Position numbers and translations under genes: made by a program. A stretch of DNA of 56,835 nt, from NCBI GenBank assembly GCA_021787985.1, contig JAJYLG010000013.1:1-56835 (forward strand), written 5' to 3'. Origin of the DNA: Chloroflexota bacterium (GTDB lineage Bacteria; Chloroflexota; Dehalococcoidia; DSGV01). Each line of letters opens with the position of its first letter. The stretch's first letter is position 1. Shown here one piece after another: positions 6,273 to 9,785 of the stretch. The notes below the pieces were generated by a model. That model was given only the letters and a program-made list of their open reading frames with translations, was not told the DNA's origin and did no database searches.

Positions 6273-6567
6273 CGTGTATCCGCACCCTAACCTCCCATGG
6301 GGCCTGGATGCTGCGGCCTTCCGGTCGGTGGCCACCCGGACGGAGTGCTGGTGCCCGAGTGCCGGTCCGGCCCGTCGGCCTGCCTTCATTTGGCGCGCCC
6401 TGACGGGGCCTTGTCAAGAGGGCGATCTTGACGCCTTGCCGCGCTCGCCGTAGCTTCGATCATGGCCATACATGCGCGGCGTCATGCCGCGGAGGTTGTA
6501 CCGCACCGCATGGAGACCGACCAGGGCGACCATCCGCCGAAGGCGGATCGCCAGTCGCACGAACCCA

Positions 6568-6673
6568 GGGGAGGTGCCTCGCTCCGAGTGAGCTGCTGCT
6601 GACGCGCTGCGTCGCGTAGCCGCGGTTCCTCCGCGGCGGACCACTTCCCACATGAGCGCCGCTCGGGAGGTGG
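6568..6673 (+). promoter_or_regulatory. Shine-Dalgarno sequestering stem with a competing upstream copy
   Basis: The ribosome-binding site of the MgtE-like gene, GGGAGGTGG (6665-6673, six bases before the ATG at 6680), can pair with CCACTTCCC at 6641-6649 (nine pairs, one G-T, 15-nt loop). A near-identical copy, GGGAGGTG at 6569-6576, can pair with the same anti-SD segment. The two pairings exclude each other, the layout of a translational ON/OFF switch. Between them lie GACGC/GCGTC (6601-6613) and GCCGCGG/CCGCGGC (6619-6637) hairpins. The pairing potential is read from the sequence; switching and ligand are inference. Confidence 0.5.
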
Positions 6674-6679
6674 TTTTCG

Positions 6680-7915
6680 ATGCCCTTCCTCAGCCAGGTC
6701 CTCGGTCGCCCCGTCCTCGACGCCGACGGCACCCGCGTCGGCAGCTTGCGCGATCTGCTGGTCGCTACCGATACTCCGTACCCCCCGGTGCGCGGCCTCG
6801 CCGTCCGTTGCGGCCGGCATCTGCATGCCGTGCCGTGGCACGACGTCGCCTCGGTCACTCCGCGCGGCACCGCGCTCCGCCACGCTTTCGATCCCCACGC
6901 CTACCCCCAGCCGACCGACGATTTGATCTGGCTCTCGCGCGACGTGCTCGACAAGCAGATCGTCGATACCCGCGGTGTCAAGCTGGTGCGGGTGAATGAC
7001 CTGGCCCTCACCTCGCTCAACGACGAGCTCCGCCTTGCCGGCGTCGACGCGACCACCGGTGGCCTGGTGCGCCGCCTCGGATTCGATTCACTGGCCCGAC
7101 GGCTCGGCCGCGGTCGGCCGCGTCTGATCGACTGGGAGCAGGTGGACCTCGGCCCGGCGGTCGAGGAGGTCCGCCTCAAGGTGCCGTACGACCGGCTGAG
7201 CCGGATGCGCCCGGCCGACATCGCCACCGTTATCAGCCAGATGTCGCCGGGTGAGGCGGCGGACGTGCTCGAGGCGCTCGACGAGGAGACCGCGGCCCGC
7301 GCGATGGTCGAGCTCTCGGACGAGCACCAGGCTGCCGTCCTGGTCGCCATGGAGCCCGAGGAGGCGGCAGACGTGCTGGAGGAGATGGCGCCCGATGAGG
7401 CGGCGGACGTCCTGGGCGACGTCGAGCAGGAGCGCGCCGAGGAGCTGATGCGGCTCATGGCACCCGGCGCCGCGCGAGAGGTCCGCACGCTCCTGACCTA
7501 CCCCGAGGACACCGCCGGCGGCCTCATGAACAGCGCCGTGGTCGCGGTCCGTGACTCCGACAGTGTCGAAGAGGTGATCGCCGAGCTGCGAAGCGCCGCG
7601 CCCTCCGAGGACGAGATCTACTACCTCTACGTGGTCGACGATGCCGGCCGCCTGCGTGGCGTCCTGTCGCTCCGGGACCTGGTCGTCGCGCAGCCGGAGT
7701 CCCGCGTGGCCGACATCATGCGCCGAGACGTCGAGACCGTGCGCTTGGACGACGACGAGGAGGAGGTGGCTCGCCGGCTGGTGCACTATGACCTGCTCGC
7801 GATCCCCGTGGTCGACGACGAGGGTCACCTCAAGGGCGTGGTCACGGTCAACGATGTGGTCGACCTGGTAACCCCGCGCTCTTGGCAGAACCGGCCCCGG
7901 CGGATGCTGGGCTGA
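6680..7915 (+). CDS. PRC-barrel/MgtE-N/CBS protein: cytosolic magnesium-sensor-type protein without a pore
   Basis: A 411-residue soluble protein built like the regulatory half of the MgtE magnesium channel. Residues 7-30 (VLGRPVLDADGTRVGSLRDLL) begin a PRC-barrel, with a second similar segment near 95-115. Residues about 170-260 are the helical MgtE_N domain with repeated acidic units such as SPGEAADVLEALDEE and EPEEAADVLEEM. TYPEDTAGGLMN near 272 starts a tandem CBS pair running to about 400. The membrane domain of true MgtE is absent. The NRAMP-type transporter gene starts 3 bp after its stop, so it probably gates or senses for that transporter. Its ribosome-binding site sits in a predicted sequestering stem. 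Confidence 0.85.
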   Translation: MPFLSQVLGRPVLDADGTRVGSLRDLLVATDTPYPPVRGLAVRCGRHLHAVPWHDVASVTPRGTALRHAFDPHAYPQPTDDLIWLSRDVLDKQIVDTRGVKLVRVNDLALTSLNDELRLAGVDATTGGLVRRLGFDSLARRLGRGRPRLIDWEQVDLGPAVEEVRLKVPYDRLSRMRPADIATVISQMSPGEAADVLEALDEETAARAMVELSDEHQAAVLVAMEPEEAADVLEEMAPDEAADVLGDVEQERAEELMRLMAPGAAREVRTLLTYPEDTAGGLMNSAVVAVRDSDSVEEVIAELRSAAPSEDEIYYLYVVDDAGRLRGVLSLRDLVVAQPESRVADIMRRDVETVRLDDDEEEVARRLVHYDLLAIPVVDDEGHLKGVVTVNDVVDLVTPRSWQNRPRRMLG

Positions 7916-7918
7916 CCG

Positions 7919-9220
7919 GTGGCGCGGCAGCTCGAGCCCCTGGCGACCTCCGCCCAGCCGGCGACGCCCGGGCTGGGTCTCCGGCAGCGCTTCGCGCTCC
8001 TCCTCGCGGTGGTCGGCCCGGGTCTCATCACCGGGATCGTCGACGACGACCCGACCGGCATCGCCGGCTACTCGCTGGCGGGGGCGCGCTACGGCTACCT
8101 GCTGCTCTGGACGCTCATCCCGATCACCATCGCGCTCGCCGTCGTGCAGGAGATGGCCGCCCGCATGGGGACCGTCACCGGCAAGGGGCTCGCCGCCCTC
8201 ATCCGCGAGCGTTTCGGGGTGCGCGTGACCGCGGTCGCCATGATCGCCCAGTTCCTCGCGAACGTGGCGACGACGATCGCGGAGTTCGCCGGCATCGCGG
8301 CGGCTTCGGAGATCTTCGGCGTCTCGCGCTACATCAGCATCCCGATCGCCGCGGTGGTGATCTACCTGATCGTGGCGTACGGATCGTACCGCCGCGTCGA
8401 GCTCGTGCTGCTCACCGGGTCGCTGGTCTTCATCAGCTACATCATCACGGGTTTCGTGGCACGGCCCGACTGGGGGGCCGTGGCGCGCCACACCGTGGTG
8501 CCCTCCGTCCGGCTGAACGTCGGCTACTTCACCATGCTGATCGGCGTGATCGGCACCAGCATCACCACGTGGATGCAGTTCTACCTGCAATCGACCGTCG
8601 TCGACAAGGGCGTTTCCCGCCGCGACTACTGGCTGGAACGGCTCGACGCGTACTTCGGTTCGATCGCTTCCAACGTGATCGCCTTCTTCATCATCGTCAC
8701 CTGCGCCGCGACCCTGTTCGCGCACGGCCTGCCGGCCGGTACCGTGACCGACGTGGCGCAGGCGTTGCGACCGCTGGCGGGCGGCTTCGCGTCCAAGCTC
8801 TTCGCCATTGGGCTGCTCAATGCGTCCTTGATGGCGGCGGCTGTCCTGCCGCTCAGCGCGTCCTACACCATGTGCGAGGCCTTCGGATGGGAGAGCAGCG
8901 TGAACCGGCCGGTGCGCGAGGCGCCGGTCTTCTTCGGCCTGTTCGCCGGGCTGCTTGTGGTCGGCGCCGCGGCGGTGCTCGTGCCCGGCCTGCCGCTGCT
9001 GATGCTGATGTTCATCCCCAACGTGGTGGAGGGCATCCTGCTTCCGCTGATCTTGATCCTGATGCTCCGGCTGGTGAGCGACCGGCGGATCATGGGGAGC
9101 TTCGTCAATACGGTGCGCCAGAACGCGATCGCCTGGACCACCGCCGTCGTCATGATCGCCCTCACGGCGGCGTACGTCGTGATCGCCGTGCTCCAGGCCA
9201 CCGGTGTGCTCCTCGCCTGA
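7919..9220 (+). CDS. NRAMP-family divalent metal transporter, non-canonical metal site
   Basis: A polytopic membrane protein of 433 residues with about eleven hydrophobic segments and an NRAMP-like pattern. Helix 1 reads GIVDDDPTGIAGY (residues 39-51) where canonical manganese/iron transporters have DPGN. Helix 6 reads IGTSITTWMQFYLQS (about 211-225) where they have an Ala-x-x-Met-Pro-His motif. Loss of the soft methionine ligand is a feature of described NRAMP-related magnesium transporters. Coupling to an MgtE-type Mg sensor gene just upstream fits magnesium, although manganese or another hard cation is possible. It starts with GTG, 3 bp after the upstream stop. Confidence 0.85.
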   Translation: MARQLEPLATSAQPATPGLGLRQRFALLLAVVGPGLITGIVDDDPTGIAGYSLAGARYGYLLLWTLIPITIALAVVQEMAARMGTVTGKGLAALIRERFGVRVTAVAMIAQFLANVATTIAEFAGIAAASEIFGVSRYISIPIAAVVIYLIVAYGSYRRVELVLLTGSLVFISYIITGFVARPDWGAVARHTVVPSVRLNVGYFTMLIGVIGTSITTWMQFYLQSTVVDKGVSRRDYWLERLDAYFGSIASNVIAFFIIVTCAATLFAHGLPAGTVTDVAQALRPLAGGFASKLFAIGLLNASLMAAAVLPLSASYTMCEAFGWESSVNRPVREAPVFFGLFAGLLVVGAAAVLVPGLPLLMLMFIPNVVEGILLPLILILMLRLVSDRRIMGSFVNTVRQNAIAWTTAVVMIALTAAYVVIAVLQATGVLLA

Positions 9221-9290
9221 GCGAGCGAGGCTGGACGTAGCAAGCTCGCTTTGGAAGACTGGACGCAGCACAGGGGACGCGGAGCGTGGG

Positions 9291-9785
9291 ATGGCGATCT
9301 TCAACCGGGTCTGGCGAATCGGCGAGTACGCACCGGCCGCCGGTGAGCCCGGTCTCACGAAGGGCGAGCCGTGGCGGGAGACGCTTGAGCTGAAAGCGGT
9401 GCAGGACGTGGCGGCGGCCCGGTTCAACTACCCGTCGCCCGAGTTCCCGAACTATCGCACCTACGTCAACAAGCCGGAGCGCCAGATGGGCGTGCGGGAC
9501 AGCCACGGTGAGTTCCTCTTCCCCGACGTGGTGGTCGCGGAGATGCCCGGTCTCACCGTCCGCCTGCTGGGCGAGGTCGAGACGCTTCGCTCGCTGCGCG
9601 ACGAAACGCTCGTCGAAAAGTGGCGGGGGTTCGGCGGGCTCGGAGCGTTCTACCTGTTCGTGCCGCTGCAGAAGACGGGCGAGGTCGCCGCTCTCGTGCG
9701 ACGCCTGAAGATCCCGGTGGTCGGCGTGCGCGGCTGGCGCTACATCGCCGGGCAAGACGTGATCGACGTCATCGACGCACCCTGA
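9291..9785 (+). CDS. Conserved-looking protein with a possible PD-(D/E)XK nuclease-like core
   Basis: A 164-residue soluble protein, start chosen at the ATG at 9291 preceded by GGAG; the open frame extends upstream to 9204 but without a better start. The centre reads FPDVVVAEMPGLTVRLLGEVET (residues about 77-98, interrupted here by no gap), with a Pro-Asp, a hydrophobic strand and a Glu-Val-Glu, the layout of a PD-(D/E)XK fold but with Thr after the last acidic residue in place of the usual Lys. The C-terminal half has GAFYLFVPL, LKIPVVGVRGWRY strand-like segments. It follows the transporter by 70 bp. A nuclease role is a guess; I do not recognise the family. Confidence 0.6.
   Translation: MAIFNRVWRIGEYAPAAGEPGLTKGEPWRETLELKAVQDVAAARFNYPSPEFPNYRTYVNKPERQMGVRDSHGEFLFPDVVVAEMPGLTVRLLGEVETLRSLRDETLVEKWRGFGGLGAFYLFVPLQKTGEVAALVRRLKIPVVGVRGWRYIAGQDVIDVIDAP

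Follow-up and report, generated by a model that had tools for sequence, protein, structure and literature searches.

A predicted two-state leader with a candidate magnesium-sensing upstream reading frame precedes an MgtE_N-NrmT operon in Chloroflexota

The window, by which we mean the whole 56,835-nucleotide stretch of Chloroflexota DNA that was analysed, carries on its forward strand, together with the leader elements described below, an operon for metal transport. Its first gene (6680-7915) encodes a protein with a PRC-barrel, an MgtE_N domain and two CBS domains, without the MgtE membrane domain (Pfam), and the next (7919-9220) encodes an NRMT-type Nramp Mg2+ transporter, for which the best phmmer match was EleNRMT (7qia, E=1.3e-111), followed by MntH (3.4e-25). 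Assignment to the NRMT type was based on clade membership and on D55, G58, T224 and no Met at 227 (EleNRMT numbering); in the window's protein the D, G and T are kept and the binding-site Met is absent, with DPTG and GTSIT aligned to DAGG and GTTIA. The metal transport genes named in the original prediction can thus be specified more exactly as this gene pair. A 193-aa open reading frame without a Pfam match lies at the operon end (9204-9785). The window's genome, a 3.5-Mb draft, encodes one CorA and has no MgtE transporter domain, so recognised routes for Mg2+ uptake may number only two, the NRMT operon being one of them. By eye, no obvious leader of the kind described below was seen upstream of this CorA.

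The window's nearest homologs are found in Dehalococcoidia/Chloroflexi MAGs. Eight leaders that align throughout (the window, L031, L112 and L032-L036), with gene products 57-72% identical to those of the window, were taken as a close set, while a wide set comprised 134 leaders of the homologous operon, in which leaders within one family are not independent. Upstream of the window's operon lies a promoter, TTGACG-N17-TAGCTT (6428-6456), and TTGAC-N17-TAnnnT occupies the corresponding place in 7/8 leaders of the close set, which would put the transcription start at about 6463. The promoter was not listed by an automatic consensus scan, owing to its weak second hexamer. After a 5' hairpin whose sequence varies between relatives (CGCGGC-GTCAT-GCCGCG, 6475-6491) comes an upstream open reading frame (uORF) of 30 codons (6510-6602, stop TGA at 6600-6602) for the putative leader peptide METDQGDHPPKADRQSHEPRGGASLRVSCC; its ATG is invariant in 8/8 leaders. 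The SD-like sequence GGAGG (6491-6495) stands 14 nt before the start codon and, given this long spacing, initiation at the uORF is predicted to be probably weak in the window.

The Shine-Dalgarno sequence (SD) of the first operon gene, GGGAGGTGG (6665-6673), can pair with an anti-SD, CCACTTCCC (6641-6649), in a duplex of 9 pairs including one G-U, and the same anti-SD can form 8 pairs, again with one G-U, with GGGAGGTG (6569-6576), a near-identical copy of the SD located 96 bases upstream of it. These segments and their spacing are as originally predicted. The upstream copy, hereafter copy 1 (GGGGAGGTG, 6568-6576; the anti-anti-SD), coincides with codons 20-23 of the uORF. Between the uORF start and segment A (see below), no site in the window pairs more strongly with the anti-SD than copy 1 (-12.6 kcal/mol), a duplex strength matched by 2% of 300 dinucleotide shuffles, and in 8/8 leaders the best anti-SD site falls at the aligned place of copy 1 (shuffle fractions for individual leaders, 0.02-0.30). 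The original prediction would be contradicted by homologous leaders lacking conservation of the three segments, or by transcription starting downstream of 6576. All three segments are conserved in the 8 Dehalococcoidia leaders, and a promoter at the matching place in all but one of them makes it very probable that the transcript begins before copy 1 and so includes it.

A second pair of alternatives, absent from the original prediction, was found between the uORF end and the anti-SD. Segment A (GAGCTGC, 6590-6596), which like copy 1 lies within the uORF and is situated just 5' of its stop, can pair with segment B (GCGGTTC, 6622-6628), and B can instead form a local hairpin with segment C as its 3' arm (CCGCGGC, 6631-6637). 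The helices thereby fall into two mutually exclusive sets. In the 8-leader alignment the ON set (A:B with copy 1:anti-SD) has 85.6% of cells paired versus 45-54% when slid, with changes on both sides at 4 pairs; A:B alone reaches 92.9%, with compensatory G-C/A-U exchanges at two pairs. The OFF set (B:C with anti-SD:SD) has 97.1% of cells paired versus 46-61% when slid, and for the 5 central pairs of B:C the figure is 100%. The conservation of the segments, together with alternative helices that covary far better than the slid controls, lends good support at the level of sequence to a switch with two states at the ribosome-binding site, and the proposal that two competing pairings around the SD form a translational expression platform is likewise supported.

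Whether the switch is seen depends on how folding is calculated. At equilibrium the SD of the complete leader is paired in nearly all states, and masking by a ribosome at single places did not open it. In a calculation on nascent RNA, with the SD not yet made, A:B (0.57-1.0) dominates B:C in all 8 leaders and copy 1:anti-SD reaches 0.14-0.88, dominant in most (0.39 in the window), whereas masking copy 1 through A, as by a ribosome at the uORF end, gives B:C and anti-SD:SD. The switch is therefore visible only in the nascent-transcript calculation and, since the SD is mostly paired in the finished RNA whatever is masked, any switch must be kinetic or co-transcriptional, acting while the RNA is being made or slowly.

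The original prediction guessed at a metal-sensing riboswitch; its expression platform is supported, while a ligand-binding aptamer is not, there being no Rfam riboswitch match and the uORF being the conserved upstream feature. Searched with the riboswitch families of Rfam, the window leader gave nothing at E=10 or below, and the leaders of close relatives nothing at E=5 or below. The suggested searches with M-box (RF00380) and yybP-ykoY (RF00080) were run: M-box gave no match in the window leader (E=10) or in L031 and L112-L117 (E=5), and yybP-ykoY no covariance-model match in the window leader or close relatives. A degenerate M-box, to which a GCTGCTG resembling the M-box core by eye had pointed, was rejected, as it had no covariance-model score. 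We also built a covariance model, R1, from six of the 8 leaders. It recovered a seventh, L112, at 82.5 bits and did not retrieve L036; across 393 genomes of the class it produced nothing else convincing (best other match, 22.5 bits). Since R1 matches only this operon in those genomes, a stand-alone RNA elsewhere in the genome or class was rejected.

With a threshold for membership of at least 44 bits for a covariance-model match in the leader, M-boxes were found in four Chloroflexota relatives, upstream of the same acidic uORF and mgtE_N-nrmT operon: L045 (355-517, 105 bits), L250 (385-558, 128 bits), L255 (395-560, 107 bits) and L267 (213-376, 132 bits). These leaders seem to hold two Mg2+ devices in series.

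The window's peptide starts METDQGD, with acidic residues at E2, D4 and D7; Ser appears first at codon 16, as TCG, and then at later codons, none of them AGT. At residue 2 the peptides of L033-L035 carry Cys, and that of L036 lacks an acidic residue close to its start. Indels of 3, 3 and 12 nt separate the uORFs of the window, L031 and L112, and in the window's clade the stops TGA, TAA and TAG occupy the same place before CGCG. Substitutions showed no codon-position bias (78/69/72, pN/pS 0.85), and the lack of an excess at position 3 rules out a conserved peptide body. Directly after the acidic codons, and within the uORF, lies a hairpin, P2 (GGCGA/TCGCC, extended in the window; 6525-6552), with 90.5% of cells paired and, across 7 leaders, 2 pairs in which both sides have changed; this covariation inside the uORF means that conservation is partly at the RNA level.

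In the wide set, leaders of the same operon from Chloroflexota, Armatimonadota and Acidobacteriota share a motif that opens with ATG, GTG or TTG as start codon, continues with an Asp or Glu codon and has an in-frame AGT Ser codon within ten codons. It occurs in frame in 36/134 leaders versus 4 and 1 in the other frames, and shuffles of the 134 leaders gave 2.6 +/- 1.6 where 36 were observed. In another count there are 38 leaders in frame versus 5 and 1, and by families 19 versus 4 and 1; other second codons in place of Asp/Glu gave 2-8, and the motif was present in 0/404 control tiles of the window. Residue 2 is acidic in 53/134 leaders (17.1 +/- 3.5 in shuffles). The distance from ATG to AGT varies by clade (codons 4 to 10) and is always a multiple of three. 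AGT accounts for 35/74 Ser codons in uORF codons 2-11 versus 4/157 in nine window genes. The early Ser codon is mostly AGT (~40 leaders), a rare codon in these GC-rich genomes, for which slow decoding or a role of the RNA might account. An SD-like match precedes 30/49 uORFs, and for the remaining starts of these leaders the rate is 21%; in f104 a perfect AGGAGG is placed 8 nt ahead of the uORF. Peptides with the motif include MDDDHSH (L151), MDDGPSR (L049), MEPGPSRRG (L146), MDADGSKS (L218) and MDGGHSS (L045), and in MDADPSGDRS (L002) the Ser position is AGC. Actinobacterial and other homologs (L055-L110) had the motif in 1/53, so it is not general there.

Several individual leaders show further features. 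In L144-L172 (uncultured Chloroflexota family f118), uORF codons 9-13 contain a perfect short hairpin, GGCGC...GCGCC, in which the loop varies freely and changes in the stem compensate each other, surrounded by a GGACC/GGTCC pairing. In L264 (G518) and L269 (G563) the uORF starts only 6-13 nt past the -10 box, so that the mRNA from which the leader peptide would be translated may be almost leaderless. The Armatimonadota mgtE_N-nrmT leaders L043 and L046 combine a uORF containing an in-frame AGTACG with an intrinsic-terminator-like hairpin just 5' of the gene.

We propose, with a probability of roughly 55%, that the leader is a Mg2+-responsive, translation-sensing attenuator of the MgtE_N-NrmT operon; here we infer the translation of the uORF, the Mg2+ signal, the abortion by the ribosome and the direction of control. 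A leader peptide with an acidic start would be translated from 6510-6602 of the same mRNA. When Mg2+ suffices, the ribosome would reach the stop at 6600-6602 and cover copy 1 and segment A, allowing the B:C and anti-SD:SD hairpins to form and turning the operon off. In low Mg2+ the ribosome would be destabilised on the acidic first codons and drop off, so that neither copy 1 nor A is covered; while the RNA is nascent, A would then pair with B and copy 1 would take the anti-SD before the SD is made, so that the SD would be exposed and the operon on. As in MgtL/MgtQ-type systems, a short open reading frame lies between the promoter and a Mg2+ transporter operon, its first codons are acidic (weakly so or not at all in L033-L036), and mutually exclusive RNA foldings around the downstream ribosome-binding site are predicted and conserved; systems of this type also feature a ribosome abortion at low Mg2+ that bL31 counters. 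Against this reading stand the absence of AGT from the window's uORF, the poor acidic start of L033-L036, the 14-nt spacing of GGAGG, the lack of codon-position bias, the paired SD at equilibrium and the covariation of P2. Mg2+ is the natural signal, given the NRMT-type transporter, closest to the structurally solved Mg2+ transporter EleNRMT (PMC8806188), and the M-boxes both in the four relatives and ahead of NrmT operons with an MgtE fragment in other bacteria (PMC4072509). This is not proof, because the A. capsulatum NrmT carries mainly Mn2+ (PMC4072509).

The main competitor to uORF-based sensing is a new metal-binding riboswitch, in which P2 and its surroundings would be a Mg2+/Mn2+ aptamer and copy 1, anti-SD and SD its translational platform. 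The covariation of P2, a CAGTA-like loop conserved in f33, a platform logic as in the M. tuberculosis pe20 M-box (PMC12810186) and the metal transport operon downstream would all suit it. However, the riboswitch searches of the window and its close relatives were negative, outside the uORF nothing conserved and unpaired was found once helices were set aside, and translation, not an aptamer, explains an ATG that never changes and an AGT that keeps its frame at varying codons. We therefore regard an aptamer as unlikely and uORF translation as the likelier sensor. The leader peptide could also be real without sensing Mg2+ by ribosome abortion; slow decoding of AGU-Ser and a peptide-specific arrest are examples of what it might respond to instead. 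The excess of AGT among early Ser codons would fit such a signal, but the window's uORF has no AGT and the operon and co-occurring M-boxes point to Mg2+, making this a distinctly improbable account.

Transcription attenuation, with the anti-SD:SD hairpin followed by TTTT acting as an intrinsic or Rho-dependent terminator instead of or besides hiding the SD, draws on the terminator-like hairpin that follows the uORF in 13/53 leaders, overlapping the SD in some (L002, L194); SD pairing follows it in 33/53. Yet no intrinsic terminator or terminator-like site (GC hairpin and T run) was found in the window, and f33 leaders are without a T run, so that we give attenuation of this kind little credence. 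It could finally be argued that nothing is regulated, the SD hairpin setting a constant low expression with the uORF incidental; folded as a single sequence, 6490-6690 shows no unusual stability (z -1.26), and chance uORFs of such length are common in GC-rich DNA. Against this, the exclusive helix sets and the uORF motif are conserved beyond shuffles and control tiles, and an unregulated leader seems very improbable.

Returning to the reading of the leader as a Mg2+-responsive attenuator, we put forward tentatively, at a little short of even odds, that it belongs to a so far undescribed family of leader peptides that sense Mg2+, M-[D/E]-...-Ser(AGU), which in Chloroflexota, Armatimonadota and Acidobacteriota would act by ribosome destabilisation before mgtE-fragment/nrmT operons. 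Some lineages would have it after an M-box; in others, the window's among them, no other sensor is recognisable. In the open-access literature we found no description of a uORF at Chloroflexota Mg2+ transporters, and the leader-peptide Mg2+ sensing that we found there concerns only a few enterobacterial genes. If the proposal is true, ribosome-based Mg2+ sensing is far older, or has been invented more often, than the enterobacterial examples suggest. A codon motif shared across phyla and sometimes stacked on an M-box would provide an independent test of ribosome destabilisation as a general Mg2+ sensor, and the reading explains how mgtE-nrmT operons without an M-box may be controlled. Because only a few codons are conserved, a leader-peptide class of this kind is invisible to RNA-family searches.

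The MgtL peptide starts MEPDPT. Some relatives start MEPGPS and resemble it, the MEP-x-P likeness being limited to a few f118 leaders, with peptides that are short and variable. As proposed here, acidic/proline uORFs control Mg2+ uptake genes in mgtL and corL (E. coli/Salmonella mgtA, corA; PMC11552253); these act by Rho-dependent termination, whereas the window's leader would hide the SD and other relatives have intrinsic-terminator-like hairpins. The mgtE-fragment/nrmT M-box operons (PMC4072509) and EleNRMT (PMC8806188) share the gene pair and the transporter family; the available portions of these reports mention no uORF or leader peptide, and the window's leader lacks the M-box. In the M. 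tuberculosis pe20 M-box leader (PMC12810186) an SD1 serving as anti-anti-SD, an anti-SD and an SD2 are arranged as in the window, in a Mg2+ context and with uORFs, but that leader has an M-box aptamer, which the window's clade does not, and its conserved uORF2 is reported to be mycobacteria-specific and is the regulated reading frame, not the sensor. In Salmonella mgtQ, located between mgtC and mgtB, Asp2 and Glu5 make the ribosome unstable, and the mgtB ribosome-binding site becomes accessible through alternative stems (PMC8092293). That peptide has 8 codons, is intergenic and serves the P-type ATPase MgtB, while here about 20-30 codons lie in a 5' leader before an NRMT in a different phylum, with no detectable homology and a mechanism that is proposed. 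What mgtQ and the window's leader have in common is an early Asp/Glu, alternative stems, and the ribosome-binding site of a Mg2+ transporter gene that is, or in the window would be, hidden or freed at the level of translation.
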